DNA of 64,000 nt from Roseospira navarrensis (GTDB lineage: Bacteria; Pseudomonadota; Alphaproteobacteria; Rhodospirillales; Rhodospirillaceae), in NCBI RefSeq assembly GCF_009601025.1, contig NZ_WIVE01000002.1:1-64000 (forward strand). The letters run 5' to 3'. Position 1 is the stretch's first letter; every line of letters begins with the position of its first letter. A program made the position numbers and the translations under genes. This document shows positions 16,555 to 33,458 of this stretch, in pieces. The notes beneath the pieces are model-generated. The model was given only the letters and a program-made list of their open reading frames with translations. It ran no database searches and was not told where the DNA came from.

Positions 16555-16568
16555 GGCCGTCCAAGCCC

Positions 16569-16785
16569 AGGGCGACGGGCTCAGGTTAACATGACGGCAT
16601 GTTCCGCGCGGTCGGAGGGGGCCTCTCGAGATCCCTCGTCTCGCTTCGCTCACTCGGGATGACACACTAAAATTATAGGATGTCATCCTGAAGCCGCGAA
16701 GCGGCTGAAGGACCTCGAGCGCAGGTCTCCGACCCGCTGCAAAGACCTGGAAGAGCGATCCCGTTAACCTGGGCTCGTTGCCGTG
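16569..16785. mobile_element. 217-bp MITE-like element, copy 1
   Basis: A non-coding element between glmS and the next kinase gene. The ends form an inverted repeat of about 20 bases (17 match) that both include CAGGTTAAC. The element lies between two exact 11-base direct repeats, CGTCCAAGCCC, at 16558-16568 and 16786-16796, as expected for a target-site duplication. The core is an imperfect palindrome around an AT-rich centre (ACTAAAATTATAGG). A second copy at 32802-33018 has the same length, no gaps and about 18 differences, and has a different flanking duplication. No transposase is encoded, so movement would need one supplied elsewhere in the genome. Confidence 0.85.
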
Positions 16786-16854
16786 CGTCCAAGCCCGTTG
16801 CAATCGTCGGCCGGGCCTGCGAGTCTGACGCAGTGTAGCGGCGGAAGGCATCGC

Positions 16855-18012
16855 ATGGCCGACGACCCGACGACCCATTTCGCCTCGTCCGTACGGCTGG
16901 ATCGGGAGGCCCTGGGGCGGCAGGCCCGCAAGGTGGCCGGGGCCGACTATCCGGCCGCCATCCTGGACGGGGTCAGCGTGCCCGTGTTCGTCCTGAACGA
17001 ACAGCGGCAGATCGTGTTCGCCAACACGGCCTTTCAGCAGTTCGTGCCGGACGACGATCCGGCGCGGTTCATCGGCCGGCGCGCGGGCGAGGCCGTCCGC
17101 TGCGTCCATGCCGACAACGACCTGGCGCCGGGCGGGTGCGGCACGGCCGAGGCCTGCCGCAACTGCGAAGCCATCCAGGCGGTCCTGCAGGCCCACGCCA
17201 AGGGCCGGGACGAGCGGACCTTCCAACTCGTCCTTCAAGGCGGCGAGGCGGTCAACGCCATCATCCGCGCCACCCGCATCGAGGTGGAGGGCGAAACCTT
17301 CATCATCGTCGCCCTGGTGGACATCAAGGACACGCTGTGGCGGCGCGACGTGGAACGGGCGTTCCTGCACGACGTCATGAACATCGCCGGGTCCATCCGA
17401 AGCTCGTCCGAGGCGCTGTCGCTGTTCGATGCCGCCACGCAGCAGGACTATATGAGCCGGATCGTCACGGCCTGCGACACGCTCATCTCGGAGATTCACA
17501 GCCACCGCCTGATGATCTCGGCGGAGGACGGCGATCTGGAGCCCACCTTCGTCCCGCTCGACTCGCTGGTAGTGCTGGAGCGGATGATTTCGATCGTCTC
17601 GCAGCACACGGCCGGCGAAGGGCGATCCGTGGTGCTGGCGCCCTCGGCCCGCAGCGTCGTGTTCCGCTCCGACGAGGGGCTGTTGTCCCGGGTGATCCTG
17701 AACCTGCTCAAGAACGCCCTTGAAGCCAGCGACCCCAGCCAGACGGTGACGGCGGATACGGGCCAGGACGGCGGCACCGTCTGGTTCTCGGTCCACAACG
17801 CGGCGCACATGCCGCCGAAGATCGCGGCGCGCGTGTTCCGCCGGTTCTTCTCGACCAAGGGCGCATCGCGCGGCATCGGCACCTACAGTGCCCGCCTGCT
17901 GACGGAAAAGTACCTGCGCGGCACCATCGCCTTCACCTCGGACCCCGAGTCCGGCACCACCTTCACGGTTCGGTACCCGCAGGACGCGGCGGCTCATACC
18001 GCCCGACCTTGA
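16855..18012 (+). CDS. PAS sensor kinase with atypical HD-x-x-N phospho-acceptor box
   Basis: 385 residues. A PAS domain (about 35-165) begins LDGVSVPVFVLNEQRQIVFANTAF and contains four cysteines (RCVHAD, GGCGT, CRNCEA) that could bind metal or sense redox. Next comes a helical region with FLHDVMNIAGSIRSSSEAL, where a histidine-aspartate pair replaces the usual HE-L-RTP-L box. It ends with an ATPase domain: VILNLLKNALEAS (N box), FFSTKGASRGIGTYSARLL (lid/G2 region) and SGTTFTVRYP. It is probably a histidine kinase of a divergent class. The ATG at 16855 has GGAAGG upstream; an upstream in-frame extension would run into the MITE repeat and is rejected. No response regulator adjoins it. Confidence 0.82.
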   Translation: MADDPTTHFASSVRLDREALGRQARKVAGADYPAAILDGVSVPVFVLNEQRQIVFANTAFQQFVPDDDPARFIGRRAGEAVRCVHADNDLAPGGCGTAEACRNCEAIQAVLQAHAKGRDERTFQLVLQGGEAVNAIIRATRIEVEGETFIIVALVDIKDTLWRRDVERAFLHDVMNIAGSIRSSSEALSLFDAATQQDYMSRIVTACDTLISEIHSHRLMISAEDGDLEPTFVPLDSLVVLERMISIVSQHTAGEGRSVVLAPSARSVVFRSDEGLLSRVILNLLKNALEASDPSQTVTADTGQDGGTVWFSVHNAAHMPPKIAARVFRRFFSTKGASRGIGTYSARLLTEKYLRGTIAFTSDPESGTTFTVRYPQDAAAHTARP

Positions 18013-18026
18013 CGTCACTTCCTAGG

Positions 18027-18111
18027 CCGGGCGGGAGTTGCACTCCCGCCCGGACCGTTCATTTCTTTCGCAAGGAATAACGCTCCGGACGGGGCTGCAA
18101 GCCCCGTCCGG
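18027..18111. terminator. Two perfect stem-loops between convergent genes
   Basis: CCGGGCGGGAGT-TGC-ACTCCCGCCCGG at 18027-18053 and CCGGACGGGGCT-GCA-AGCCCCGTCCGG at 18085-18111 are both exact 12-bp stems with 3-base loops. They lie between the kinase gene ending at 18012 and the SRAP gene ending at 18223 on the other strand. The first is followed by ACCGTTCATTTCTTT, a modest T-rich tail, so transcription termination from both sides is the likely role. Confidence 0.65.
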
Positions 18112-18222
18112 CACATTCGTCTGTCCGTCATACGCGTTGAGAAGTGTGAACGTGATCGCCCCTGCCGGGGGCGGAGTCTGGGTGGCGCGGTCCTGACCGG
18201 AACGGACGCCCCGGCGAGCGTG

Positions 18223-18873
18223 TCAGAACATCGACTCCTGAGAGCCAGGCGCCGCCCGTCCCTCGCCGCCCGGTTCGTCGTCATCGATGGCGAGCGCCCC
18301 ATCCCAGGCGGTCAGGAGCCCCCGCACCGCCTCAAAAGGGCGGTCCGGGTCGAGCCACGCGGCCTCGGCCTCGGCGTCCGTCAGGAACGCCGGCATGCGG
18401 TGATGCAGCGCGGCCATCTGCTCGGTCGCGGGGCGGGTGATGACGGTGAACCGGCCCCGGTCATCCACCAGGCCGGCCATGGCGTGCACCGGCGCATCGG
18501 CCCGCCCGATCCGGTGGCGGCGCTTGCGGGCCCTGGCCGGCGCGCCGGGCACGGGCGTCCACTCATAAAACGCGCTCAGCGGGACGAGGCAGCGGTTGCC
18601 CAAGACCGGCCGGAACGTGGGTTTCTCGGTCAGGGTCTCGGCCCGGGCATTGATGAGCGGCTTGGTGTCCCAATCCACCGCGAACCCCCAGGGCAGCGCG
18701 ATGGGTACCCGGCGCGGCCCGATCACGGGCACGCGGTCGGTCGGCCGGATCTCGGCTTTCGGCAGCCCGTCCAGCGCGGCGCGGGTCGCCGCGTCCTCGT
18801 CCGGCGGGGCGGTCAGGCCGAAGCGCGCCAGCAGGTCGGCGGGCGCCACATTGAGTTCGAAACGCGAGCACAT
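18223..18873 (-). CDS. SRAP-domain abasic-site shield protein (HMCES/YedK family)
   Basis: 216 residues beginning MCSRFEL. After removal of Met1 the family's Cys2 forms a covalent link with abasic sites in single-stranded DNA, shielding them. Other family residues are visible: PLINARAET (Asn), LSAFYEW (Glu) and LHHRMPAFL (His). Also present are LPWGFAVDW and RCLVPLSAF. An open frame continues upstream of this ATG, but it is antisense to the next gene and lacks similarity; the MCSRF start is required for catalysis. It is transcribed away from the SDR gene, with 48 bases between their starts. Confidence 0.93.
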   Translation of the reverse strand: MCSRFELNVAPADLLARFGLTAPPDEDAATRAALDGLPKAEIRPTDRVPVIGPRRVPIALPWGFAVDWDTKPLINARAETLTEKPTFRPVLGNRCLVPLSAFYEWTPVPGAPARARKRRHRIGRADAPVHAMAGLVDDRGRFTVITRPATEQMAALHHRMPAFLTDAEAEAAWLDPDRPFEAVRGLLTAWDGALAIDDDEPGGEGRAAPGSQESMF

Positions 18874-18921
18874 GCCGGGTAGGATGGGGCGCTTCCCAGA
18901 CCCCCGCAAGGACCCCCGCCG

Positions 18922-19725
18922 ATGTCGGATGCCAACGACCCCCTCGCCTGCCCCGTCGATCACAGCGCCATGAAGGAGGCCGCGCCGAAATACACCGGCC
19001 AGTCGGTGCTCATCACCGGCGCCAGCCAGGGCATCGGTCACGCCATCGCCGCCCGTTTCATGGCCGAGGGCTGGCGTGTCATCACCTGCGCCCGCCGCGA
19101 CGTGCCGGCCCATTGCCGCCGCGATCCCCTGTGGACGCACCACTTCGTCGCAGACCTGGGCCAGCCGGACAGCCTGGACGAGTTCGCCCGCCAGGCCAAC
19201 GAGGCCCTGGGCGACGAGCCCCTTCACGCCCTCATCAACAACGCCGGTGTCTCGCCCAAGACCCCCTACAAGGAGCGCCTGGGCATCCTCAACGGCTCGC
19301 TGGAGGGCTGGCATGACGTATTCGAGCTGAACTTCTTCGCGCCCCTGCGTCTGGCCCGGGCGATGAGCGTCAAGCTCGCGCGCGGCAAGGGCACGGTCAT
19401 CAACATCACGTCCATCGCCGGGCACTACGTGCACCCGTTCGCCGGGTCGGCCTATTCCACCTCCAAGGCCGGGCTCTCCGGCCTGACCCGCGAGATGGCG
19501 GCGGAGTTCGCGCAGTTGGGCGTGCGCGTGAACGCGGTCGCCCCCGGCGAGATCGCCACCGACATGATCAGCGAGGAGTACGAATCGCTGATCCCGCGCA
19601 TCCCGCTGGACCGCATGGGCTCGGTCGCCGACGTGGCGGGCGTGGTCTTCCGGCTGTGCGACGCCGATTTCAGCTACGTGACCGGCAACGAGGTGTTCGT
19701 GGACGGCGGGCAGCGGCTTCTTTAG
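18922..19725 (+). CDS. Short-chain dehydrogenase/reductase
   Basis: 267-residue classical SDR. After a 25-residue leader, the NAD(P) site TGASQGIGHAIA appears, then the INNAG block, catalytic Ser in NITSIAG, and YSTSK (Tyr and Lys). It ends with GNEVFVDGGQRLL, as in FabG-like reductases. The substrate is not predictable. It is distinct from the true fabG in the fatty-acid cluster at 53 kb. Confidence 0.88.
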   Translation: MSDANDPLACPVDHSAMKEAAPKYTGQSVLITGASQGIGHAIAARFMAEGWRVITCARRDVPAHCRRDPLWTHHFVADLGQPDSLDEFARQANEALGDEPLHALINNAGVSPKTPYKERLGILNGSLEGWHDVFELNFFAPLRLARAMSVKLARGKGTVINITSIAGHYVHPFAGSAYSTSKAGLSGLTREMAAEFAQLGVRVNAVAPGEIATDMISEEYESLIPRIPLDRMGSVADVAGVVFRLCDADFSYVTGNEVFVDGGQRLL

Positions 19726-19839
19726 CCGCCGCATGGAACCGAGCGGCCCCTTCGCCGGTTTCCTGGGAGCACGGGGGCTCGACCATCACGACGGTCGGGA
19801 CCCCGAAACCCGGAACACCCACGAGAGGGGACCGCCACC

Positions 19840-20004
19840 ATGACCATCACCATCAACAGCCTTCAGCCCATCATTTCGCTGGTCGCCGGCATTCTGATTC
19901 TGGTCTGGCCCAAGCTGCTGAACTACATCATCGCGGGCTACCTGATCCTGGCCGGGATCCTGGGACTGGTCGGGGGCGCCAACATGGCCGGGATGCATAT
20001 GTGA
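19840..20004 (+). CDS. Small DUF3096-like membrane protein
   Basis: A 54-residue protein: a short N-terminus (MTITINSLQP), then two hydrophobic stretches (IISLVAGILILVWP and NYIIAGYLILAGILGLVGG) joined by KLL. This pattern fits the small DUF3096 inner-membrane proteins common in proteobacteria, whose function is unknown. AGAGGGG lies about ten bases before the ATG. It probably has its own transcription unit. Confidence 0.75.
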   Translation: MTITINSLQPIISLVAGILILVWPKLLNYIIAGYLILAGILGLVGGANMAGMHM

Positions 20005-20078
20005 TCCGGATCGGGTGGCCTTATACCAACGGCAGGAGGCTTTGACCGTCAGGACGGATGCGACAGCAAGAAAGGGTT

Positions 20079-20192
20079 GTCATCCTGAAGAAGCGAAGCG
20101 ACTGAAGGATCTCGGGAGGACGGGTGAGTCCGGGCCGGCCGACGCACGCGCCAGCCCGGGATCCTTCGCCGTTTTCAACGGCTCACGATGAC
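20079..20192. repeat. Imperfect inverted repeat related to the MITE core
   Basis: The left arm at 20079-20116 carries GTCATCCTGAAG, GCGAAGCG and CTGAAGGATCTCG, the same words as the right half of the 217-bp elements. The right arm at 20155-20192 is its imperfect inverse (25 of 38 positions). Neither the AT-rich centre nor the CAGGTTAAC ends are present. It is probably a separate member of the same intergenic repeat family. The surrounding gap, 20005-20240, holds nothing else. Confidence 0.65.
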
Positions 20193-20240
20193 GCGCAAGC
20201 GGCCGTGAGAGTCGCGCCCTCCTCACCGATCATCCTGCTC

Positions 20241-21536
20241 TCAAACCGTCCGCACCAGCCGCGCCGCATAGAACCCGTCCATGCCGCCGGTGTCGGACTG
20301 GTGGCACGGCAGGGTGCGCAGGTCGCCCTCCGGCGTGAGCAGATCGGACAGGCCGCCCACCTCGTCCGGCGTGACGGGATCCCGGATCAGGTCCGCGCGC
20401 CGCGCCAGAGCGGCGGCGATCACACCCGGTCCCTCCTCCGGCTGCAACGAGCACACGCAGTAGACCAGCGTGCCGCCCGGCCTGAGCAGGCCCAGCGCCG
20501 CATCCAGCAGCGCGGTCTGCAGGTGGGCGAGGCCGGCCGTCGCCTCGGGCGTTTTCAGCCACAGCGCATCCGGATGCCGCCGCAGGGTGCCGGTTGCGGA
20601 ACACGGGGCGTCCAGCAACACCGCATCGAACGGGCCGTCCGGCGGCGTCCAGGCCAGGGCATCGGCGGCGATCACCTGCGCGGACAGTCCGGTGCGGGCC
20701 AGATTCTCCCGCACGCGGTTGAGTCGGCCGTCGGAGCGGTCCAGCGCCACCACCTCGGCCCCCGTCGCGGCCAGTTGCAGGGTCTTGCCGCCAGGGGCCG
20801 CGCACAGGTCGGCCACCCGCCTCCCGGGGCCCGCCCGCAGTAGGCGCGCGGGCAGCGCGGCGGCGGCGTCCTGCACCCACCACGCGCCCTCGACAAAGCC
20901 CGGCAGGTCGGGGACCGGCGGATGATCGGCCGGCAGCCGCATCGTGCCCGTCGGCAGCGCGACGGCCCCCAGGCGCTCCGCCCAGACCGGGACCTGTTCC
21001 GGGTCCTTCAGGGTCAGATCCAGCGGTGCGGGATTCTGGTGCGCGCCGGCGATGGCGCGCGCGGCGTCCTCGCCGTACGCCCGGGCCCACGCGGTCCACA
21101 GCCAGTCCGGCGTGTTCAGGCGTGGGCCGTCCTGCGCCGCCCACCAGGCCCGACCCTCCCGGTCCAGCCGACGCAGCACGGCGTTGACGAGGCTCTTGTG
21201 CCCGCCCTGGCGGGCCGCGACGCACAGGTCCACGGCGGTGGTGACGGCGGCGTGGGGCGGCATCTCCAGCACGAGAAGCTGGGCCGCGCCCAGCCGCATC
21301 ACATGGCGCACGGGGCGCGCCTTGGCCGGCAGCGGGCGGTCCAGGCAGCGATCCAGCAGAGCGTCGATGCGGCCCAGGTGCCGCAGGGTGGCCGCGACCA
21401 GCGAATGGACGAAGGCCCGGTCGCGCGGCGCCAGATCGCCCACGGCCCCGCCCAGAACCTCATCGAGGGGGCGGCCCTTGTCGAGCACCTGGCGGAGCAC
21501 CGCAAGCGCGGCACGGCGGGAGGGGATGGCGGTCAT
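20241..21536 (-). CDS. rsmB: RsmB-like 16S rRNA cytosine-C5 methyltransferase
   Basis: 431 residues. The N-terminal NusB-like RNA-binding domain (to about 135) contains DRAFVHSLVAATLRHLGRID and KSLVNAVLRR. The C-terminal class I methyltransferase has motif I VADLCAAPGGKTLQLA, the conserved cysteine in LDAPCSATGTLRRHPD (motif IV) and the catalytic cysteine in VYCVCSLQPEEG (motif VI). Both cysteines of the RsmB/NOP family are present. It likely methylates C967-type cytosine in 16S rRNA. Specificity is by family, since alphaproteobacteria often carry more than one such paralogue. Confidence 0.9.
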   Translation of the reverse strand: MTAIPSRRAALAVLRQVLDKGRPLDEVLGGAVGDLAPRDRAFVHSLVAATLRHLGRIDALLDRCLDRPLPAKARPVRHVMRLGAAQLLVLEMPPHAAVTTAVDLCVAARQGGHKSLVNAVLRRLDREGRAWWAAQDGPRLNTPDWLWTAWARAYGEDAARAIAGAHQNPAPLDLTLKDPEQVPVWAERLGAVALPTGTMRLPADHPPVPDLPGFVEGAWWVQDAAAALPARLLRAGPGRRVADLCAAPGGKTLQLAATGAEVVALDRSDGRLNRVRENLARTGLSAQVIAADALAWTPPDGPFDAVLLDAPCSATGTLRRHPDALWLKTPEATAGLAHLQTALLDAALGLLRPGGTLVYCVCSLQPEEGPGVIAAALARRADLIRDPVTPDEVGGLSDLLTPEGDLRTLPCHQSDTGGMDGFYAARLVRTV

Positions 21537-21573
21537 CCGCGCCGTCTACGCCCCGCCGGCTCGCAGGTCAAGG

Positions 21574-22539
21574 TCATCCCCAGGGACCGCGCCGCCGCCG
21601 ACGTCCGCCAGCCGCGCCGGTGGAGGGGATTCGGGAGCTGGCGGCCGTCGTCGCCGCACCGCTGCCGCCCGGGGCCACGGTCGCGGCCACCGACCCCGTG
21701 CCCCCATGCGCCGCCATCTCGCGCAGGGCGCGGACCCGATTGGTGGTGGCCGGGTGGGTGCTGAACAGGCTGTCGTGTTTGTGGGCGTGCAGCGGGTTGA
21801 CGATGAACAGATGCGCCGTGGCCGGGTTGCGCTCGGCCGCGTGGTTGTCGATGGACTTCGCACCCCGCTCCAGCTTCTCCAGGGCGCTCGCCAGCCATTC
21901 CGGGTTGCCGGCGATGCGCGCGCCCTCGGCGTCGGCCCCGTACTCGTTGTGCCGCGAGATCGCCATCTGCACGATCATGGCCGCGACGGGCGCCAGGATC
22001 GCCACCAGAATCGCCCCCACGATCCCCAGCGGGTTGTCGCGGTTGCCCCCGAAGAACAGCGCGAAGTTGGCCAGCATGCCGATGGCGCCGGCGATGGTCG
22101 CCGTGATCGTCATGGTCAGCGTGTCGCGGTTCTTCACGTGCGCCAGTTCGTGGGCCATCACGCCCGCGACCTCCTCGCGGCTCATCACGTTGAGCAGGCC
22201 CGTGGTTGCCGCCACGGCGGCATTCCGCGGGTTTCGCCCCGTCGCGAAGGCGTTCGGCTGCGGCGTGTTGATGATATAGACCTTGGGCATGGGCAGGTCC
22301 GCCCGGCGCGCCAGATCGCGCACCAGACCCACGAACTCCGGGGCCTCCTGCTCGGTGACCTGACGGGCGCCGTGCATGGACAGCACCGCCTTGTCGGAGT
22401 TCCAGTAGGCGAAAAAGTTCATGCCGAGCGCCACCAGCAGCGCCAGGATCATGCCCCCGGCCCCGCCGATCATGTAACCGACGGTCAGGAACAGGCCGGT
22501 CATGGCGGCCAGCAGCAGGGCGACACGGGCGAACGACAT
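21574..22539 (-). CDS. htpX: Zinc membrane protease HtpX
   Basis: 321-residue M48 peptidase of the inner membrane, which clears misfolded membrane proteins under stress. Two N-terminal hydrophobic segments are followed by [12 protein letters not shown], the zinc site [10 protein letters not shown] and two more hydrophobic stretches. The downstream Glu ligand lies in [10 protein letters not shown]. The start at 22539 is supported by GGAGG; a longer frame to 22599 lacks support. The last 40 residues are low-complexity Gly/Ala/Ser, then RRRRRG, an unusual tail. Same strand as rsmB, 37 bases upstream of it. Confidence 0.95.
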
Positions 22540-22658
22540 GGAGGGTCCTCCCCAAAGCGGCGGAAAAGCGCCTTCGAGATAGGATCGGGGGCGGTGCATT
22601 CAACTAAATTCCTGGTAAGCTCTTCGTCGGTGTGACGGTCCGGACGGCGGAGGGCGGC

Positions 22659-23567
22659 ATGGGGCGCGGAACGGTCGGTGGAACGCAGCGGCGATACGCC
22701 GCCCTTGTCGTCGGGCTCGCGGCGCTGCTCGCCGCATCGCCGGTCGCGGCGGGGGAGAGCGCCTGGTCCCGGCAGACCGAGCCCGCGCCCGGCCCGGCCC
22801 GGGTGATCGGCGGGTATACTCACGGATGCATCGCCGGCGCGGTCGCCCTGCCCCTCGACGGCCCGGGCTACACGGTGCTCCGGCCGCAGCGCCTGCGCTA
22901 TTTCGGACATCCCGCGCTGATCGCCGTGATCCGCGACCTGGGGGCCTGGGCCGACCGCCACGGCTGGGGCACCCTGCTGGTGGGCGACCTGTCGCAGCCG
23001 CGCGGCGGCCCCATGAGCTACGGCCACGCCAGCCACGAGGCCGGTCTTGACGCCGACATCTGGTTGCGCCTGCTGCCGCCGGGCCAGCGCCTGTCGGACG
23101 CGGAGCGGCGCGACCCCACTCCGGTGTCCATGGTGCGGACGGGCGCGCCGACCGCCGATCCCGCCGTGTGGACCGACACCCATGCCGCCCTGGTGCGCGC
23201 CGCCGCCCAGGACCCTCGTGTGGCCCGCCTGTTCGTCAACCCGGCGATCAAGGCCACGCTCTGCCGGGCCTTCCCGCCGGACGCCGACGGCAACACACGC
23301 TGGCTCCAGAAGGTCCGGGCCTGGTACGGGCACGATTCGCACGTCCACATCCGGCTGCACTGTCCTTCGGACAGTCCGGGCTGTGTGCCGCAGGACCCGC
23401 CGCCGCCCGGAGCCGGATGCGAGGCCGAGGGGTTCGCCTGGTGGGCGAACAGAATTGCCGATCGTCTCACCCAAAAGGCGTCCGCACCCGCGCCGGTGGC
23501 CGCGCCTGTTGCCGGGCCGCCGCAATCCGTGCCCGAGGCCTGCGGCGGCGTCCTGTCGTCTCGATAA
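22659..23567 (+). CDS. mepA: Penicillin-insensitive murein endopeptidase MepA-like
   Basis: 302 residues with an N-terminal signal peptide (RRYAALVVGLAALLAASPVAAGES). It is a LAS-type zinc peptidase that cuts D-Ala-meso-DAP cross-links in periplasmic peptidoglycan. Metal and catalytic blocks: SYGHASHEAGLDADIW (His and Asp ligands) and GHDSHVHIRLHCP (C-terminal His). Six or more cysteines occur, as in other MepA. The ATG at 22659 with GGAGGGC upstream is preferred to GTG 22632. The next gene is an L,D-transpeptidase, so the pair remodels cell wall. Confidence 0.9.
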   Translation: MGRGTVGGTQRRYAALVVGLAALLAASPVAAGESAWSRQTEPAPGPARVIGGYTHGCIAGAVALPLDGPGYTVLRPQRLRYFGHPALIAVIRDLGAWADRHGWGTLLVGDLSQPRGGPMSYGHASHEAGLDADIWLRLLPPGQRLSDAERRDPTPVSMVRTGAPTADPAVWTDTHAALVRAAAQDPRVARLFVNPAIKATLCRAFPPDADGNTRWLQKVRAWYGHDSHVHIRLHCPSDSPGCVPQDPPPPGAGCEAEGFAWWANRIADRLTQKASAPAPVAAPVAGPPQSVPEACGGVLSSR

Positions 23568-23654
23568 CGGGTGTGCATGGATGTATGCTCAGGAGCTGCG
23601 GTGACGGCCCGCCCGGCACCATGCGGCAGCGCTCAACAGAAGGTTGATCGGTCC

Positions 23655-25415
23655 ATGATCCAGATCCCGCTGAACACAGCACGCCCCTTCCCGCCCTCTC
23701 GGCCCAGCGTCGGCGGCCGGCTGGCCTTGGGCATGGGCGCGCTGCTGCTCATCCCCGCTTTGGCGGCCTGCGTGACGACCCCGCCGGAGGGCGAGACGGA
23801 CCTTGGTCTGCTGCTGCTGGCGCGCATCCAGAACGGCTCCGACGGATCGGCGGCGGGGGACCCGACCGGCACCGCGACAACCGAAGCCCTGAAGGCCCTG
23901 GTGGAATCCGGGACCGCTGACGCCTCGACCCGGCCCCAGGATGCCGCCCTCGTCCAGGCGTTCTACGCCGGGCGCGGCTTCGCGCCGGCGTGGACCGACG
24001 GAACGGGCCCCACGGCCCGGGGACAGGCGGTCCGGGATGTGCTCGTGACCGCCTGGGCGGACGCCATCCCCGATATCGCGGTTCCGCCCGTGCCCGAGGC
24101 CGAGGCCGGCGCGCCCGTGCCGCCGGCGGCCGTGGCGCGGCATGATCTGGCCGTGACGCGCGCGCTGGCGACCTACGCTGGGCGCGCGCTGCAACGCCGG
24201 GTCGTCTGGGCGCCGCGCATCCCCGATGGCACCCTGGGCGCCCTGCGCGAGATCGCGGCGGAGAACCCGGCCGCCGAGCCGCCCGGCCGCCTGTTCCGCC
24301 TCGTCTCCGACGACGACCGCACGGCGCGCCTGCGCCGTGGCCTGTTGCGGTATCACGCCCTGGCCGAGGGCGGCGGCTGGCCCCGCGTGAACCCGGACGG
24401 CGCCAAGATCGAACCCGGCGACCGCCATCCGGACGTGCCCCTGATCCGCGCCCGCCTGGCCGTGACCGGAGACCTGACGGACGAAAACGCCGGCCCCTCC
24501 GCCTCGGCCGCCGTGGATCCGACCCTGCTTGACCCGGTCCTCGCGGCCGCCGTGCGGCGGTTCCAGGCCCGCCACGGTCTGGCCATCGACGGCAAGGTGG
24601 GCCCCCAGACCCGCGCCGCCATGGCCATGCCGGCGGACCGGCGGCTGCGCCAGATGGCGCTCAACCTGAAACGCCTGCGGGCGCTGCCGCCGCTCCCCGA
24701 CGGACGCTCCATCGAGGTCAACATCGCGGGGGCGGCGCTGGAAGGACGCCAGGACGGCGAGACGGTGTTTCGCACCGACGTGATCGTCGGCATGCGTGAC
24801 CGGCCGACGCCGGAACTGCGCAGCGCCATCAACCAGCTTGTGCTGAACCCCACGTGGACGGTGCCCACCAGCATCGCCGAGAAGGACATCCTGCCCAAGT
24901 TGCGCAACGACCCCACCTATCTGACCTCGCACGGGTTCCAGGTGTTCGAGGGGTGGACCGGCGGCGCGGCCGAGCTGGACCCCTCCCAGATCGACTGGCA
25001 CGCGCCCGACGTGGATATTCGCGGCATGCGTCTGCGGCAGGCGCCCGGCCCGGGCAATGCCCTGGGCGAGATCAAGTTCCTGTTCCCGAACGACCATGAC
25101 GTCTATCTGCACAGCACGCCCAGCCGGGGTCTGTTCGCGCGCTCGACCCGCACGTTCAGTTCGGGATGCGTGCGGGTGCGCGATCCGCTGGATCTGGCGA
25201 CCTTCATCCTCGACGACCCTGGCACGTGGACCGCCGAAACGCTCCGGGACCGCATCCGGGCGGGCGGAACGCGCACGGTCCGTCCCGGCCAGTCCATCCC
25301 GGTGTCGATCATCTACCTGACGGCCTGGGTCGCGGAAGACGGGACGATTCACTTCCGTCGCGATGTTTACGGCACGGATGCCGGCGATCTCTCAACGGTC
25401 GCGGATCTGCGCTGA
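23655..25415 (+). CDS. L,D-transpeptidase (YcbB/LdtD-like), predicted lipoprotein
   Basis: 586 residues. It makes 3-3 cross-links in peptidoglycan. An N-terminal hydrophobic segment ends in LAAC (Cys39), a lipobox, so it may be lipid-anchored, which is unusual for LdtD-type enzymes. After it come a scaffold region, a peptidoglycan-binding domain (AVRRFQARHGLAIDGKVG) and a C-terminal YkuD catalytic domain with TWTVPTSIA, YLHSTPSRGLF and SSGCVRVRDP (nucleophile Cys). Length and order fit YcbB/LdtD. The start at 23655 follows GGTTGATCGGTCC; the frame upstream lacks similarity. It is 87 bases after mepA and probably co-expressed. Confidence 0.88.
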   Translation: MIQIPLNTARPFPPSRPSVGGRLALGMGALLLIPALAACVTTPPEGETDLGLLLLARIQNGSDGSAAGDPTGTATTEALKALVESGTADASTRPQDAALVQAFYAGRGFAPAWTDGTGPTARGQAVRDVLVTAWADAIPDIAVPPVPEAEAGAPVPPAAVARHDLAVTRALATYAGRALQRRVVWAPRIPDGTLGALREIAAENPAAEPPGRLFRLVSDDDRTARLRRGLLRYHALAEGGGWPRVNPDGAKIEPGDRHPDVPLIRARLAVTGDLTDENAGPSASAAVDPTLLDPVLAAAVRRFQARHGLAIDGKVGPQTRAAMAMPADRRLRQMALNLKRLRALPPLPDGRSIEVNIAGAALEGRQDGETVFRTDVIVGMRDRPTPELRSAINQLVLNPTWTVPTSIAEKDILPKLRNDPTYLTSHGFQVFEGWTGGAAELDPSQIDWHAPDVDIRGMRLRQAPGPGNALGEIKFLFPNDHDVYLHSTPSRGLFARSTRTFSSGCVRVRDPLDLATFILDDPGTWTAETLRDRIRAGGTRTVRPGQSIPVSIIYLTAWVAEDGTIHFRRDVYGTDAGDLSTVADLR

Positions 25416-25609
25416 GTTTCGCGGTTTCTGGAAAGAGTCCAGGCCCGGAGTCCAGCTTTCGCGCATTCTTTGTTGCTTTTGTCGCTGCGGTGCGCAATTT
25501 TGCTGTCCCTCCGGGGCTGCGGCCCCGGGTCGCATTGCACCGGCCCGCGCCGGCTTCCGCGCCGCGTGGGCTCACCGAACCACCCGGAAACCGCAGCGGA
25601 GCGCGCGCC

Positions 25610-27505
25610 ATGTCCGACGCCTACCAAGAAGCCCACGACCTGTCCCTGACGGACCCGGCAGCCTTCTGGGGCAAGGCTGCCGAGGACATCCATTGGGTCA
25701 AGCGGTGGGACAAGGTGCTCGACGAGTCCAACCCGCCCTTCTATCGCTGGTTCGTCGGCGGTGAGCTGAACACCTGCTACAACGCCGTGGATCGGCATGT
25801 GGAAGCCGGTCACGGCGATCGGGCCGCGATCATCTATGACAGCCCGATCACCGGGACCAAGCGCACCACCACGTATGCCGAACTGAAGCAGCAGACCGCA
25901 TCCTTCGCCGGCGTGCTGGCCGACCAGGGTGTGACCAAGGGCGACCGTGTCATCATCTATATGCCGATGGTGCCCGAAGCCCTGGTGGCCATGCTGGCCT
26001 GCGCCCGCCTGGGCGCCGTGCATTCGGTGGTGTTCGGCGGATTCGCCGCCAACGAGTTGGCGACCCGCATCAATGACGCCAAGCCCAAGGTGGTGGTGGC
26101 GGCGTCCTGCGGCCTGGAGCCGGGCCGCGTCATCGCCTACAAGCCGCTGCTGGACGAGGCCATCCGCGTGGCCACGCACAAGCCCGACCGCTGCGTCATC
26201 CTGCAGCGGGAGCAGAAGCCGGGTGACCTGATCGCCGGCCGTGACGTGGACTGGGCGGAGGCCGTCTCCTCGGCCCGTCCGCACGACTGCGTGCCGGTGC
26301 AGGCCACCGACCCGCTGTACATCCTGTACACCTCCGGCACCACCGGGCAGCCCAAGGGCGTGGTGCGCGACAACGGCGGGCACGCCGTCGCCCTGAAATG
26401 GACCATGAAGGCCATCTACAACATGGAGCCGGGCGAGGTGTACTGGGCCGCGTCCGACGTGGGCTGGGTCGTCGGGCACTCCTACATCTGCTACGGCCCG
26501 CTCCTGCACGGCTGCACCACGGTCGTGTTCGAGGGCAAGCCCGTGGGCACGCCCGACGCGGGCACCTTCTGGCGGGTCATCAGCGAGCACAAGATCCCGG
26601 TGCTGTTCACCGCGCCGACGGCCTTCCGCGCCATCAAGAAGGAAGACCCGAACGGCGAGTTGCTGCAGAAGTATGACCTGAGCCATTTCCGCACCCTGTT
26701 CCTGGCCGGCGAGCGCGCCGACCCGAACACCATCACCTGGGCGCAGGCTCAGCTCAAGGTGCCGGTCATCGACCACTGGTGGCAGACGGAAACCGGCTGG
26801 GCCATCGCCGCCAACTGCATGGGCCTGCAGGAATTCCCGGTCAAGTTGGGCTCGCCGACCAAGGCCGTGCCGGGCTGGAACGTCCAGGTCCTGGGCGAGG
26901 ACAAGCAGCCCGTCGCCCCCGGCCAGATCGGCGCCCTGGTCTGCAAGCTGCCGCTGCCTCCGGGCACGCTGCCGACGCTGTGGAATGCCGACGACCGCTT
27001 CCGTCAGGCGTACATGGACGAGTACCCGGGCTACTACAAGACGGGCGACGCCGGCTTCGTGGACGAAGAGGGCTACGTTTACGTCATGACCCGGACCGAC
27101 GACATCATCAACGTCGCCGGACACCGCCTGTCCACCGGCGCCATGGAAGAGGTGCTGGCCAATCACCCGGATGTGGCCGAGTGCGCCGTGATCGGCGTGC
27201 ACGACGACATGAAGGGGCAGATGCCGCTCGGTTTCCTGGTCCTCAAGGCCGGCGTGACAAAGCCGCACGCCGAGGTCGTGGCCGAGGCGGTCAAGATGGT
27301 GCGCGAGACCATCGGTCCCGTCGCGGCCTTCAAGAAGGCCCTGGTGGTCAACCGTCTGCCCAAGACCCGCTCCGGCAAGATCCTTCGCGGCACCATGCAG
27401 AAGATCGCCGACCACGAGGAGTTCAAGATGCCGGCGACCATCGACGATCCGGACATCCTGCCCGAGATCGAGGACGCGCTGAAGGAGGTCGGACTGGCCA
27501 AGTAA
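25610..27505 (+). CDS. prpE: Propionyl-CoA synthetase PrpE (acetyl-CoA synthetase family)
   Basis: 631-residue AMP-forming acyl-CoA synthetase. The P-loop-like motif YTSGTTGQPKG is followed by VVRDNGGHAVAL, characteristic of PrpE rather than Acs. Other blocks: WWQTETGW (adenylate), YKTGDAGFVDEEGYVYVMTRTDDIINVAGHRLSTG, and C-terminal RSGKILRGTM with the catalytic lysine that Pat-type enzymes acetylate. It activates propionate to propionyl-CoA; some activity with acetate is likely. Methylmalonyl-CoA mutase at 45-49 kb could finish the route to succinyl-CoA. Monocistronic, with a terminator just after the stop. The AT-rich TTCTTTGTTGCTTTTG at about 25468-25483 may be part of its promoter. Confidence 0.9.
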   Translation: MSDAYQEAHDLSLTDPAAFWGKAAEDIHWVKRWDKVLDESNPPFYRWFVGGELNTCYNAVDRHVEAGHGDRAAIIYDSPITGTKRTTTYAELKQQTASFAGVLADQGVTKGDRVIIYMPMVPEALVAMLACARLGAVHSVVFGGFAANELATRINDAKPKVVVAASCGLEPGRVIAYKPLLDEAIRVATHKPDRCVILQREQKPGDLIAGRDVDWAEAVSSARPHDCVPVQATDPLYILYTSGTTGQPKGVVRDNGGHAVALKWTMKAIYNMEPGEVYWAASDVGWVVGHSYICYGPLLHGCTTVVFEGKPVGTPDAGTFWRVISEHKIPVLFTAPTAFRAIKKEDPNGELLQKYDLSHFRTLFLAGERADPNTITWAQAQLKVPVIDHWWQTETGWAIAANCMGLQEFPVKLGSPTKAVPGWNVQVLGEDKQPVAPGQIGALVCKLPLPPGTLPTLWNADDRFRQAYMDEYPGYYKTGDAGFVDEEGYVYVMTRTDDIINVAGHRLSTGAMEEVLANHPDVAECAVIGVHDDMKGQMPLGFLVLKAGVTKPHAEVVAEAVKMVRETIGPVAAFKKALVVNRLPKTRSGKILRGTMQKIADHEEFKMPATIDDPDILPEIEDALKEVGLAK

Positions 27506-27539
27506 CCCGGCCTGAACCGCACCTGTCGCGTTAACGGAG

Positions 27540-27581
27540 CGGCCGGCACCCCCCCCTGGGGCGCGCCGGCCGTTCTGTTTT
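27540..27581 (+). terminator. Intrinsic terminator of prpE
   Basis: CGGCCGGC at 27540-27547 pairs with GCCGGCCG at 27565-27572. Inside, runs of C and G can pair further. The stem is followed by TTCTGTTTTG, a T-rich tail. Confidence 0.8.
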
Positions 27582-27880
27582 GTGGACGCCACGGCGCGCC
27601 CCGGCTTGGTCAGGACTCGCGCCGCGTCCGGACGCGACTCCGAGCATTCATGATTGCGGCACCAGCCGGGGCATCAACTGCCGGTGTAACGGTGCTTTAC
27701 GATTTCTCAAGGGCTGTTCCCTATTTTCCTGCGGACGTCGATAAAATCATTTACGACCATGGGGCACGTATTGTTTTTATACCCTGCATAAAACTGCAGG
27801 GCCGCGCCGAGGGCGCATGACCCCGCCTTGGCCGCCGCGGGGTTCTGGGGGGGCGCGGACGGTCGAGGAGAGTGTTTCGG
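27582..27880. other. Non-coding leader of the PAS-GGDEF-EAL gene
   Basis: No gene is seen. Bases 27690-27800 are unusually AT-rich for this genome (GATAAAATCATTTACG, TTGTTTTTATACCC). A 7-bp stem-loop CCCTGCA/TGCAGGG lies at 27782-27801. TTTATACCC could include a -10-like element. A regulated promoter or a leader RNA is plausible, but no known riboswitch is recognised. Confidence 0.4.
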
Positions 27881-30478
27881 ATGAACGGGAGTCAGACGGA
27901 TCCAGGAGTGCCCGTGCGGCCCAGGGAAGCGATGTCCACCACCGCCTGCGCGGTCTGTGCCTCCGTTCCGTCGACCTGTCCCGCGAACCTCCCCCGGGGC
28001 CTGTCGTGTCACCATGTGCTGGAGCGCGTGGATGCCGGGCTCGCCCTGGTCAATGGCGGTGCGATCGTCTTCGTCAACGACTCGTTTGCAGCGCTGGCGC
28101 GCCGGGAGCGCGACCAGCTCATCGACGTTCCGTTCCTGTCCCTGTTCGTCGAAGATGATCGAAAGCTGCTCAACACCTGCTTGAATGGCGCGGCGGAACC
28201 CGGTGGGGCTTGCGGACCCTGCGCCGACACGCAGGCCCCGCCCTCGGTTTACCATCTGCGGGCGCCGGATCAGGACGAGCCCGTCGGGGTCACGGTGCGG
28301 GCCCAGGGCCTCGACATGGGCCCACGCGGCGACACCGAGATCCCGGTCCTGGTCGAGATGCGCGACGCCACCCGGGAAACCGAGATGGCGCAGGCCCTGC
28401 AGGACAGCGAGCGACGCTACCGTGGCCTGTTCGAGCATGCGCTTCAGGGGATCTTCCAGACCACCCCGGACGGGCGCTATGTCACCGTCAATGCCGCCTG
28501 CGCCGAGATCCTGGGCTACGACGGTCCCGAAGACCTCATCGCCTCGCGCACCGACATCGCGCGCCAGTCCTACCTGGACCCGGACGCCCGCCGGCGGTTC
28601 ATCGCCCGGGTCGAGGAAGAAGGCGTCGTCGAGCATTTCGAGTCCCAGATGCTGCGCAAGGACGGCTCGGTCATCTGGATCACGGAAAACGCCCGCTGCG
28701 TGCGCGACCAGAACGGCAACACCGTCATCTACGAAGGCACGATGGCGGACATCACGGCCCGCAAGCAGGCGGACGCCGACCTGCACCTGATGGCCAAGGT
28801 GGTCAACAGCGTGCACGAGGGCATCGTCATCATCGACCGCGACCGGCTGGTCTGGGGCGCCAACGAGGCCTACCAGCGCATGACCGGCCACGATGCCGCC
28901 GACCTGCTGAGCCGCCCCGCGCGCCTGACCACGCCGGAACTGCACGAACCCGGGTTCGAGGGCATGATCCTGGAACAGGTGGAGGCCACCGGGCACTGGG
29001 TCGGCGAGGTCTGGGCGCAGCGCCGCAATGCGCCGCCCTTTCCCATGGAAATGTCGGTCTCCGCCGTGCGCGACCGCGACGGAACCCTGACCCACTACGT
29101 CGCCGCCTGCACCGACATCACCAAGCGCAAGCGGGACGAGGAGCATATCCGCTTCCAGGCCAACTACGACATGCTCACCCACCTGCCCAATCGGTACCTC
29201 ATCATGGACCGGCTGGAACAGGCGATCCTGAAAGCGCGGCGGGACGACACGCGCGTGTGCGTGCTGTTCCTGGACCTGGACCGCTTCAAGAACATCAACG
29301 ACCTGTACGGCCACGCCGCCGGCGACGAGGTCCTCAAGCTGGTGGCGCGCCGCCTGCGGCAGGTGGTGCGCATGTCGGACACTGTCGGCCGCCTGGCCGG
29401 CGACGAGTTCATCATCGCGCTGACCGACGTGGCCGACGGCGACGTGGGCGACCAGGTGGCAAGCAAGATCATCGAGGCCCTGTCCGAACCCTTCCTGATC
29501 CTGGACGCCGAGCTGTTCTGCCTGCCGTCCATCGGCATCACCTACTTCCCCGACCAGGCCGATTCCGTCGAGGCGCTGCTGCGCAACGCGGATATCGCCA
29601 TGTATCACGCCAAGCTGCTGGGGGACCGGCGGCATATCGCGTTCTCGGAGGACATGGCGCAACGGTCCATCGAAATGATGAACCTGGAAAACGACCTGCG
29701 CCATGCCCTCAACCGCGAAGAGCTGGAACTGCACTATCAGCCGAAGGTCTCGGGCCACGACGGCAGCGTGGTCGGCGCGGAGGCCCTGATCCGGTGGCGT
29801 CATCCCCGGCTGGGGCTGGTGGGTCCGGGCGACTTCATCCCGCTGGCCGAGGAATCCGGCCTCATCATCCCCATGGGCCGCTGGACGCTGGTGACGGCCT
29901 GCAAGCAGTACATGCTCTGGCAGGCCGAGGGGATCGCGCCCGACAGCGTGTCCGTCAACGTCTCCATGCGCCAGTTCACCGACACGTCGTTGCTGGAAAG
30001 CGTGCGCGACGTGCTGGAGACCACCGGGATTCCGCCGGGCTGCCTGGATCTGGAGATCACCGAAAGCGTGATGACCGGCAACGTGGAACGCGCCGTGTCG
30101 ATCCTGAACGGGCTGAAGTCGCTGGGGGTCACCCTCTCCATGGACGACTTCGGCACCGGCTACAGCTCGTTGAATTACCTCAAGACCTTCCCCATCGACA
30201 CGCTGAAGATCGACCAGACCTTCGTCCGGGATCTCAGCCATGACACCAAGGATGCGGCTATCGTGACGACCATCGTCACGCTGGCCCGCAACCTGGGTTT
30301 CAACGTCATCGCGGAAGGCGTTGAATCACATGACCAATTGGCCTTCCTGATTGGCAGCGACTGCCCGCTGTTCCAGGGCTATCTGGCCAGCCGGCCCCTG
30401 CCGGTGGATGCCTTCACGGAATTTCTGCGCAGCCGCCTGCCGCGCGGCACGGTTTCGGCGACCCCGCCCGCCTCCTGA
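27881..30478 (+). CDS. PAS-GGDEF-EAL cyclic-di-GMP signalling protein
   Basis: About 865 residues with no membrane segments. A degenerate PAS-like N-terminus with several cysteines (to about 175) is followed by two PAS/PAC units (about 180-300 and 305-415). The GGDEF domain (about 425-590) has active-site variant AGDEF in GRLAGDEFIIAL and no clear RxxD inhibitory site. The EAL domain (about 605-855) has GAEALIRWRHP, ITESVM, DDFGTGYSSL and IAEGVES, all key metal and catalytic residues. It probably degrades c-di-GMP; synthesis is possible because AGDEF variants can be active. ATG 27881 has GAGGAG ten bases upstream; GTG 27872 is the alternative. Confidence 0.93.
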   Translation: MNGSQTDPGVPVRPREAMSTTACAVCASVPSTCPANLPRGLSCHHVLERVDAGLALVNGGAIVFVNDSFAALARRERDQLIDVPFLSLFVEDDRKLLNTCLNGAAEPGGACGPCADTQAPPSVYHLRAPDQDEPVGVTVRAQGLDMGPRGDTEIPVLVEMRDATRETEMAQALQDSERRYRGLFEHALQGIFQTTPDGRYVTVNAACAEILGYDGPEDLIASRTDIARQSYLDPDARRRFIARVEEEGVVEHFESQMLRKDGSVIWITENARCVRDQNGNTVIYEGTMADITARKQADADLHLMAKVVNSVHEGIVIIDRDRLVWGANEAYQRMTGHDAADLLSRPARLTTPELHEPGFEGMILEQVEATGHWVGEVWAQRRNAPPFPMEMSVSAVRDRDGTLTHYVAACTDITKRKRDEEHIRFQANYDMLTHLPNRYLIMDRLEQAILKARRDDTRVCVLFLDLDRFKNINDLYGHAAGDEVLKLVARRLRQVVRMSDTVGRLAGDEFIIALTDVADGDVGDQVASKIIEALSEPFLILDAELFCLPSIGITYFPDQADSVEALLRNADIAMYHAKLLGDRRHIAFSEDMAQRSIEMMNLENDLRHALNREELELHYQPKVSGHDGSVVGAEALIRWRHPRLGLVGPGDFIPLAEESGLIIPMGRWTLVTACKQYMLWQAEGIAPDSVSVNVSMRQFTDTSLLESVRDVLETTGIPPGCLDLEITESVMTGNVERAVSILNGLKSLGVTLSMDDFGTGYSSLNYLKTFPIDTLKIDQTFVRDLSHDTKDAAIVTTIVTLARNLGFNVIAEGVESHDQLAFLIGSDCPLFQGYLASRPLPVDAFTEFLRSRLPRGTVSATPPAS

Positions 30479-30522
30479 GGGGCGGGCGGCCGTCCGACGC
30501 TCGACTCCGATCCGGTCGTGAC

Positions 30523-31920
30523 CTACCGCCGCAGGCCCTCCCGGACGACGGCCTGCAGGGCGCGGGTATCGTTGGGCGCCTCCACCATGCGCTCGGGCCG
30601 CTGGAACAGATCGGCCAGCCGCGCCGGCAGCGGGGGGCGCACGCCGGTGGCCTGCTCGACCGCATCCGGGAACTTGGCCGGATGGGCGGTCGCCAGCGAC
30701 ACCGTCACGCCGCCTTCGTCGCGCCGCCCGGCCACCTGCCCGGCCACGATGCCAATGGCGGTGTGCGGGTCCGCCAGCACGCCCGTCGTTTCCAGGATGC
30801 GGCGCATGGAGGCCGAGGTTTCCTCGTCCGTCAGGCGGTGCCCCCGGAACAGGCCGAGCAGCTCCTGGTGCAGGTCGTCCGGAACGTCGAAGGCCCCGCT
30901 CTGGCGGAACCTGTCCATGGCGGACCGCACCTCGGCGGCATCGCGCCCGTACACCTCGAACAGCAGGCGCTCGAAGTTGCTGGACACCTGAATGTCCATG
31001 CTGGGGCTGATGGTCGGCACCACGGTTTCCTGCCGCATGGTGCCCGTTTCCAGGAACCGGCTCAGGATGTCGTTCTGGTTCGAGCCCACCACCAGCCGGT
31101 CGATGGGAAGACCCATCTGGCGGGCCACGTAGCCCGCGAAGATGTTGCCGAAGTTGCCCGTGGGCACGCTGAAGCCCAGGCCCCGATCCGGCGCGCCCAG
31201 CGCCACGCCGGCCCAGGCGTAGTAGACCACCTGCGCCATGATGCGGGCCCAGTTGATCGAGTTGACGGCGGACAGGCCCACTTCCTCGCGGAAGTCCGGA
31301 TCGCCGAACAGCGACTTCACCAGCGCCTGACAGTCGTCGAACGTGCCGTTGACCGCGATGTTGTGCACGTTGGCGGACTGCACGGTCGTCATCTGGCGCC
31401 GCTGCACCTCCGACACCCGGTCCTTGGGGTGCAGGATGAAGATGTCGATGGCCTCGCGGTCCCGGCAGGCCTCGATGGCGGCGGAGCCGGTATCGCCCGA
31501 CGTCGCCCCGACGATGGTCACGCGGCGGCCGGCGCGCGTCAGCAGCAGCTCGAACAGCGGCCCCAGCACCTGCATGGCGTGGTCCTTGAAGGCCAGTGTG
31601 GGCCCGTGGAACAGCTCCATCATCCAGTCGTGGGGGCCGATCTGGCGCAGCGGCGCCACCGCCGGATGATCGAAGCGCGCATAGGCGGCGTCCAGCAGGT
31701 CGGCCAGTTCCTCTTCCGTCAGCGCCGCGCCCACGAACGGCAACATGATCCGGAACGCCAGTTCCTCATGGGACAGGCCGCGCATGTCGCGCCACTCCCG
31801 CTCCGAGAGGACCGGCCACTCCTCGGGCACGTACAGGCCGCCGTCGGCAGCCAGGCCGGTCAGGACGACATCATCGAAGCCCAGAACGGGGGCGGTGCCC
31901 CGGGTGCTTACATATCGCAC
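30523..31920 (-). CDS. thrC: Threonine synthase
   Basis: 465-residue PLP enzyme converting O-phosphohomoserine to threonine. Blocks seen: MRYVSTRGTAP at the N-terminus, LFHGPTLAFKDHAMQVLGP with the PLP-lysine, GATSGDTGSAAIEA (phosphate binding), NSINWARIMAQ and VPTGNFGNIFAGYVA. It is the longer, proteobacterial/yeast-like class of ThrC. It converges with the c-di-GMP gene. The upstream SGNH hydrolase on the same strand is 51 bases away and may share its transcript. Confidence 0.96.
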   Translation of the reverse strand: MRYVSTRGTAPVLGFDDVVLTGLAADGGLYVPEEWPVLSEREWRDMRGLSHEELAFRIMLPFVGAALTEEELADLLDAAYARFDHPAVAPLRQIGPHDWMMELFHGPTLAFKDHAMQVLGPLFELLLTRAGRRVTIVGATSGDTGSAAIEACRDREAIDIFILHPKDRVSEVQRRQMTTVQSANVHNIAVNGTFDDCQALVKSLFGDPDFREEVGLSAVNSINWARIMAQVVYYAWAGVALGAPDRGLGFSVPTGNFGNIFAGYVARQMGLPIDRLVVGSNQNDILSRFLETGTMRQETVVPTISPSMDIQVSSNFERLLFEVYGRDAAEVRSAMDRFRQSGAFDVPDDLHQELLGLFRGHRLTDEETSASMRRILETTGVLADPHTAIGIVAGQVAGRRDEGGVTVSLATAHPAKFPDAVEQATGVRPPLPARLADLFQRPERMVEAPNDTRALQAVVREGLRR

Positions 31921-31970
31921 GGCACAAGATCTCCCTTCACGGTGTGCGGGGTCAGGCCCCGTCCCGGACC

Positions 31971-32696
31971 CTAAGCCCTGTCGCGGGGAGCGGCAACACC
32001 ACGCATGCCCGGTCCCCGTCGCGCCGCGAGGGCCGCATCCACCTGCGTCGCCAGGGCCTCGGCCAGGGCGGCATGATCGGCCTCGGTGTAGTGTACGCCG
32101 TCCACCCCGTGGGTTCCCCCCGTGATCGCCCCGGCCTCCGCGACCCGCAGGCCCGCGCCGACGGCGGCCGCCGCCACGGCCGGGCCGACCAGCCGGGACA
32201 GGGGCTCTTGCCCCGCGAAGGTCTCCCGCGTCCAGGGGGCCAGCGGGCCCAGCGGCGGCGGCGCCAGGATCAGGACGTCGGGCGGCGCATAGGCACTGGC
32301 CGGGCCGCCCGTTCCGGCCACGGCGGCCAGGGCCAGCACGGACGCAGCGATGGCCCCCGCCGAGCGCGCGAAGCGCGCCTTCATGTCGTTGGTGCCCAGG
32401 GCCAGAACGACCAGGTCCACCGGCGTCGCCCGGACCAGCGCGCCCGGAAGGTGGTGGCGGCCGTTGAAGGCCTCGGGCGCGAGCGGCGGGAATGTCTCGG
32501 CGGCGAACGTGTCGTCCCGATCCACGGTCCGGGCCGGCAGGGCATCGACGCGAACGCGCGCGGCGCCGCCCAGCCGCGCCGCCATGGCCTCCGGCCAGGG
32601 GACGCCGTCCGGGAAGCGCTCAAGCGGGCGACGTTCCACGTCAGGGATCCAGCCCCAGGCGTTGGAATCGCCATAGACGAGCACAGTGGCGGGCAT
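31971..32696 (-). CDS. SGNH/GDSL hydrolase
   Basis: 241 residues. Block I is VYGDSNAWGW with nucleophile Ser, block III is LALGTNDMK (Asn), and block V is DGVHYTEADH (Asp and His). These four families of residues define SGNH esterases and lipases. No signal peptide is present, so it is probably cytoplasmic. Several bacterial homologues are arylesterases or acyl-CoA thioesterases; the substrate here is unknown. It lies just upstream of thrC on the same strand. Confidence 0.88.
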   Translation of the reverse strand: MPATVLVYGDSNAWGWIPDVERRPLERFPDGVPWPEAMAARLGGAARVRVDALPARTVDRDDTFAAETFPPLAPEAFNGRHHLPGALVRATPVDLVVLALGTNDMKARFARSAGAIAASVLALAAVAGTGGPASAYAPPDVLILAPPPLGPLAPWTRETFAGQEPLSRLVGPAVAAAAVGAGLRVAEAGAITGGTHGVDGVHYTEADHAALAEALATQVDAALAARRGPGMRGVAAPRDRA

Positions 32697-32801
32697 GGGG
32701 GCTCCTTCAACACCGGGGCGGTGGTTCGATTTCGATCCACGAACCCGACCGACCCTAACGCCCTCGCGGGGCGGCGGCCAGGGGCGAGCGTCATCGCCCT
32801 C

Positions 32802-33018
32802 AGGGCAACGGGTTCAGGTTAACATGGCGGCATGTTCCTCGCTGTCGGAGCGGGCCTCTCGAGATCCCTCGTCTCGCTTCGCTCACTCGGGATGACCCAT
32901 TAAAATTATAGGATGTCATCCTGAAGCCGCGAAGCGGCTGAAGGACCTCGAGCGCAGATCCCCGCCCAACTGCAAAGACCTGGAAGAGCGATCCCGTTAA
33001 CCTGAGCCCGTCGCCCTC
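32802..33018. mobile_element. 217-bp MITE-like element, copy 2
   Basis: The second copy of the element at 16569-16785, in the same orientation, with about 18 differences and no gaps. Inverted ends match at 18 of 20 bases and include CAGGTTAAC. It is flanked by TCATCGCCCTC at 32791-32801 and 33019-33029, a direct repeat different from that of copy 1, so each insertion duplicated its own target. It lies between the divergent SGNH hydrolase and trxA genes, upstream of the probable trxA promoter. Confidence 0.85.
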
Positions 33019-33037
33019 TCATCGCCCTCACCTCATC

Positions 33038-33067
33038 TTGACGCCCGTGATCTCCCGGACCTACAGT
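33038..33067 (+). promoter_or_regulatory. Probable sigma-70 promoter of trxA
   Basis: TTGACG at 33038-33043 and TACAGT at 33062-33067 are separated by 18 bases. This is a good match to the housekeeping consensus, about 75 bases before the trxA start. It lies just outside the right target duplication of the MITE copy. Confidence 0.6.
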
Positions 33068-33143: not shown

Positions 33144-33458
33144 ATGAAACATGTGTCCGATTCCTCGTTCGAGGAGGATGTCCTGAAGTCCTCGTCCCCC
33201 GTGCTGGTGGACTTCTGGGCGGAGTGGTGCGGCCCCTGCCGGCAGATCGCGCCGGCGCTGGAGGAGCTGGATCAGTCCATGGGCGACAAGGTCACCGTGG
33301 CCAAGATCAACATTGACGAGAATCCCAACACGCCGAACAAGTACGGTGTGCGGGGCATTCCGACTCTGATGGTGTTCAAGGACGGTCAGGTCGCCGCGAC
33401 CAAGATCGGCGCATTGCCCCGCAGCAAGCTGATCGAATGGGTCGAATCGGTGGTCTGA
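33144..33458 (+). CDS. trxA: Thioredoxin
   Basis: 104-residue thioredoxin with the redox site WAEWCGPCR (residues about 28-36), the cis-proline block GIPTLMVFKDG, and the usual VAKINIDENP. It reduces protein disulfides in the cytoplasm, taking electrons from NADPH through thioredoxin reductase. Monocistronic, with its own promoter and terminator. Confidence 0.97.
   Translation: MKHVSDSSFEEDVLKSSSPVLVDFWAEWCGPCRQIAPALEELDQSMGDKVTVAKINIDENPNTPNKYGVRGIPTLMVFKDGQVAATKIGALPRSKLIEWVESVV

Follow-up and report, generated by a model that had tools for sequence, protein, structure and literature searches.

Two intergenic repeats within a stretch of 64,000 nucleotides from Roseospira navarrensis (the window) are, with high confidence, 218-bp copies of a non-autonomous MITE, here called family A, that were inserted by an ISAs1-family DDE transposase with 10-bp target duplications. 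In the proposed sequence of events, such a transposase would have recognised the MITE ends of about 23 bp, inserted the element and thereby made the 10-bp duplications; from the comparison of element ends, we infer that an ISAs1 transposase, or a lost relative of it, moved the MITE in trans, and family A may now be stranded in its own genome because the assembly holds no ISAs1 match. The middle of the MITE is an inverted pair of REP-like palindromes, a module that also occurs in MITEs with other ends and into whose palindrome pairs a resident IS110-type element inserts. Family A is an ISAs1-type MITE family, of a kind already known, and it matters as a large family for which a congener has a probable autonomous partner, which makes trans-mobilisation by ISAs1 elements testable. 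The core as a guest, and its exploitation by the IS110-type element, is the aspect that most deserves further study.

The first-pass annotation had described two colinear non-coding elements of 217 bp with about 18 differences, inverted ends and a core able to fold into a long hairpin around an AT-rich centre, and each part of this description was borne out. In alignment the two copies are colinear, with mismatches in 18 of 217 columns; they are non-coding by their intergenic position and, being short, multi-copy, bounded by inverted ends and without a transposase, have the properties of MITEs. Counted as 218 bp, the element has the outer letters CAGGGC…GCCCTG, and a search of the window for the 23-base end motif (at most 3 mismatches) hit the four ends of the two copies and nothing else, with 0 hits in 100 shuffles of the window. 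Copy 1 folds as RNA into a single long hairpin (-122.2 kcal/mol, z -8.85), and copy 2 folded as DNA gave z -4.17. The features of the two copies are the following:

16558-16567, no strand: left 10-bp target duplication of copy 1 (CGTCCAAGCC), from the duplication-length analysis
16568-16785, + strand: MITE family A copy 1, 218 bp including the outer C and G
16568-16590, + strand: left terminal inverted repeat of copy 1, from the end-motif search
16627-16663, + strand: REP-like unit 1 of the core, copy 1
16682-16716, - strand: REP-like unit 2 of the core, copy 1, inverted relative to unit 1
16763-16785, - strand: right terminal inverted repeat of copy 1, from the end-motif search
16786-16795, no strand: right 10-bp target duplication of copy 1, from the duplication-length analysis
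32791-32800, no strand: left 10-bp target duplication of copy 2 (TCATCGCCCT), from the duplication-length analysis
32801-33018, + strand: MITE family A copy 2, 218 bp
32801-32823, + strand: left terminal inverted repeat of copy 2, from the end-motif search
32860-32896, + strand: REP-like unit 1 of the core, copy 2
32915-32949, - strand: REP-like unit 2 of the core, copy 2
32996-33018, - strand: right terminal inverted repeat of copy 2, from the end-motif search
33019-33028, no strand: right 10-bp target duplication of copy 2, from the duplication-length analysis

The repeats around the two copies had earlier been written as 11-base duplications (CGTCCAAGCCC and TCATCGCCCTC); the letters are exact, but the true length is 10 bp, the sole length clear of mispaired controls over 44 copies, and the 11th base of the window repeats is the outer C of the element, matched by chance in both window copies. 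The analysis covered copies with both ends, 195-400 bp apart and each with no more than 6 mismatches; loci that were duplicates, had a single end or lay at a contig edge were omitted, and the outer C (present in 41/44 copies) and outer G (39/44) were counted as element. At n=10, flank identity reached 0.73, compared with 0.31 when the flanks were mispaired; 24 of the 44 copies matched at 9 or more of the 10 bases, a level reached by 0.05% of mispaired flanks; identity at n=8, 11 and 12 stayed at background and that at n=9 was slightly raised (0.41), because a few copies (L007, L021, L028) are offset by one. Several copies, L004, L020 and L055 among them, are without a duplication, which they have lost or never had, and the relation between copy divergence and duplication decay was weak (rest of the element, p 0.07; core, p 0.20).

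These flanks also bear on whether segmental duplication or recombination, instead of transposition, gave rise to the copies. The two copies do lie in the same orientation, 16 kb apart, and are 93% identical; however, their flanks are unrelated, with no homology past the element ends in the alignment, each copy has its own duplication, and other copies are spread over many contigs, so that we regard such an origin as extremely improbable and retain separate transposition events, as the first-pass annotation had it.

A genome-wide check for copies with flanking repeats agreed with transposition, at least 40 near-full copies being found and more than half of the 44 analysed having a duplication of at least 9/10. 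The R. navarrensis assembly (4.43 Mb, 197 contigs, 98.4% complete) yielded at least 65 matches to the element, with the window pair among the near-full-length ones, and the copy count is a lower bound since 40 of 188 first-look candidates were scored. The 22-base end motif (at most 3 mismatches) occurs 66 + 56 times, against 0 for the reversed control, and among the matches listed several ends without a partner are found close to contig edges, where the MITE is broken by other elements. Across 297 genomes of the order, the end motif with one mismatch was found in 11, namely 54 times in R. navarrensis (G000), 12 times in a congener (G002) and at most 4 times in each of the others. Full-length matches were restricted to G000 among the matches listed for the 40 genomes searched with the element; in G003, G002 and R. 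marina (G004) the family A query matched the core only, and G005 carries elements of 247, 248 and ~350 bp with family A ends and another interior. A distant-mode search of a plasmid collection gave no match.

Some copies have been rearranged. Locus L041:2002-2574 holds the right half of a family A copy with three further tandem repeats at a 119-bp period, and in L045:1001-1379 and L046:1001-1366 a second MITE-like insert (TACCAACGG...CCGCTGGTA) sits at the same central place in family A copies.

As to the source of the transposase, the suggestion that it would come from elsewhere in the genome holds insofar as the MITE needs one from elsewhere, but profile searches of the R. navarrensis assembly found no match to NF033564 (ISAs1) or PF01609 (DDE_Tnp_1). 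The MITE therefore looks orphaned in this assembly, from which, at 197 contigs, a repeated IS could be missing. A search for an IS with the same inverted ends, raised as a check, was successful in other genomes: matching IS ends were found in G002, R. marina and Sphingopyxis bauzanensis, in each case with ISAs1-type transposase sequence. In addition, in a relative of the same taxonomic family (L066) a transposase C-terminus runs directly into a family A end, and its C-terminal peptide has matches in 8 of 73 genomes.

The congener G002 carries an IS in multiple copies, and its most frequent left end agrees with that of the MITE at 23/23 positions; 7 of 10 fetched left ends read CAGGGCAACGGGCTCAGGTTAAC, and the remaining 3 start CAC, with one change. 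All 8 fetched contig-edge right ends pair with a left end through an exact 10-bp flank (left ends L204 and L206 have no partner among the fetched right ends), and 7 of the 8 carry an ISAs1 C-terminus (26-residue NF033564 match, E 3e-4 each). Since the interior of this IS is absent from the contigs, its link to ISAs1 runs via these short peptides and two copies shortened by internal deletion to 611 and 463 bp, which retain both ends and ISAs1 remnants. The flanks of the two deleted copies are swapped between them (10/10 and 9/10), a pattern that recombination between the two would produce. In R. marina DSM 15113, a left end matching at 22/23 is followed by an ISAs1 N-terminus (107 bits) whose match spans profile positions 1-110 of 314 only, the copy being cut short. 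A complete IS of 1263 bp is present in S. bauzanensis, encoding 380 aa (NF033564, 355 bits), with ends that match the MITE at 20/23 and an exact 10-bp duplication, ACTTTATCCG, on both sides.

IS4-type elements can give duplications of about this length, and an IS4-type transposase had been proposed in the first-pass annotation. That an IS4-family transposase moved the MITE is nevertheless highly unlikely: the transposase of the end-matching elements does share the broad Pfam domain DDE_Tnp_1, of which the R. navarrensis genome has no match, but ISAs1 is the only NCBIfam assignment of these elements (no other up to E 0.001), and the MITE ends begin with CAGGG, as the accessible portions of two reports print for ISAs1 elements along with 10-bp repeats (PMC11946415, PMC6305408). 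Family A thus resembles ISAs1-family ISs in its CAGGG-type ends, identical at 20-23 of 23 positions to those of the ISs found here, and in its 10-bp duplications, and differs in lacking a transposase, with only the ends in common and an unrelated interior.

Among described MITEs, MITEPye1 of Paracoccus yeei is, according to the accessible part of its report, similarly short and non-coding, with inverted ends that match an IS, direct repeats and a long hairpin, but is tied to IS1182 and present in 1-3 copies per chromosome (PMC11578231); family A, in contrast, is of ISAs1 type, has at least 40 copies and contains a REP-like core. In the accessible literature on the ISAs1 family and MITEs no ISAs1-derived MITE was found, although one may still exist in print; one MITE review does not mention ISAs1, and no literature was found that combines a Roseospira genome with transposable elements.

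The core is shared more widely than the ends. A second MITE family of the window, family B, has ends of its own and a core of the same kind:

37961-38156, + strand: MITE family B, 196 bp, ends CCGGGCTCCGAATCC..., core of the same kind

Its flanks (CGAACAATTG / CGAACAAATG) agree at 9/10 positions of a 10-bp duplication, and in G001 and G005 ends similar to its own stand next to ISAs1-type C-termini. Several cores in G003 sit, as read by eye, between other inverted ends, and 86 core matches were found in the R. navarrensis genome. In G003 a further MITE-like family (L143, L076-L081) combines a core of this kind with ends like ATACC...

Within family A, the core varies far less than its surroundings. 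Over 36 aligned copies, the REP-like units departed from the consensus by 0.015 on average, compared with 0.087 for the ends and 0.103 for all sequence outside the core; over all 44 copies, the corresponding values were 0.031, 0.093 and 0.125. Core divergence was hence lower than that of the rest by 6.7-fold (36 copies) and 4.1-fold (all 44), with 2/218 and 1/218 circular shifts, the true place itself included, equalling the true core place. Left out of the smaller set were L055, L057 and L058 (other hairpin tips), L045 and L046 (central insert), L033 (9-bp insert), L059 and the second copy in L012. The 13 of 36 copies whose duplication is perfect still depart by 0.088 outside the core, so part of the contrast predates insertion, and the low core variation may reflect selection, conversion or source history. 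Compensatory changes were found in 5 of 54 predicted pairs in family A (covariation term -0.35), too few to demonstrate a selected structure; many hairpin tips of core pairs fold despite different letters, but the left tip of family A does not fold by itself. Among the papers listed in a literature search with the REP-like core sequences, none is related by title. With drifting ends and a steady core, family A lends itself to the question of whether REP-like palindromes are under selection, undergo conversion or are merely inherited.

The core also invites the interpretation that the element is a REP/BIME unit spread by a RAYT (Y1 transposase), its outer ends being incidental. Although the core is an inverted pair of REP-like palindromes and a single Y1_Tnp gene was detected in the genome (24.6 bits, cut-off 23), the 10-bp duplications flank the whole 218-bp unit, and Y1 transposition is not known to make such target duplications. 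Moreover, this gene is flanked, as read by eye, by a different palindrome, and we consider spread by a RAYT very unlikely compared with insertion by an ISAs1 transposase. The palindromes on either side of the Y1_Tnp (RAYT-like) gene, at L191:1363-1890, have the form GGCGGGTTCGCGCCG.AGGCGCAACCCGCC and so differ from the MITE core; none of them occurs in the window.

The conserved middle of the MITE is a landing site for an IS110-type element. This element is recognised by its terminal 62 aa, which match the end of the IS110 model at 36 bits (whole-protein cut-off 140) in NCBIfam only, no match to the end peptide being found in Pfam, and it has 33 matches in the R. navarrensis genome, nearly all at contig ends. 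In all 30 junctions read (of the 33 matches; L161-L190), the host sequence ends in GTCATC right before the element, and 25 of the 30 are core-like by a rule that allows one mismatch in the partner arm (24 by eye); the junction in L183 looks coding by eye. Core-like GTCATC was thus present at 25/30 junctions as against 7/73 window sites (binomial p 3e-21, contig ends taken as independent), and 4 of the 30 insertions lie within family A (L162, L178, L179, L185). Further elements, at the contig ends of L048, L051, L050, L053 and L056, interrupt copies of family A or its relatives within the core or close to it.

REP elements are known, from the accessible parts of two reports, as targets of IS110-family ISs (PMC1525189, PMC11208160), and the present case is similar in that repeated palindromes receive an IS110-type insertion at a fixed position; it differs in that many of the palindrome pairs of this genome sit inside MITEs, with at least two types of ends. 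The insertions illustrate REP-like palindromes acting as target sites in nature, and, to judge by its family, the IS110-type element may be RNA-guided in its targeting. It is conceivable, if on balance doubtful, that the REP-like pair is a functional guest that stays nearly unchanged while the ends drift, rides several MITE types and gives an RNA-guided IS110-type element its landing sites; if so, one mobile family would sow targets for another.

Both window insertions lie close to genes. The duplication of copy 1 begins 3 bases past the stop of a gene (14725-16554) that we take to be glmS-like, and the right duplication of copy 2 ends 9 bases before a promoter-like TTGACG-18-TACAGT (33038-33067, 9/12 matches) that precedes a presumably thioredoxin-like gene (33144-33458). 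No terminator-like site was found around copy 1, so a classical intrinsic terminator there is not supported, and Rfam gave no match at gathering scores in 16000-38500. The comparison of related genomes at both sites, raised in the first-pass annotation as a check for empty sites, succeeded in part: R. marina retains the divergent gene pair of site 2 and lacks the element, but between the two genes its sequence differs too much to define an empty site to the exact base, and four other congeners have different genes upstream and hence do not test it. At site 1, family A was absent, none of five congeners (0/5) carrying it. In G003, a different MITE with a core of the same kind, a copy of the family with ATACC.. 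ends, stands at site 1, directly past the glmS-like gene.
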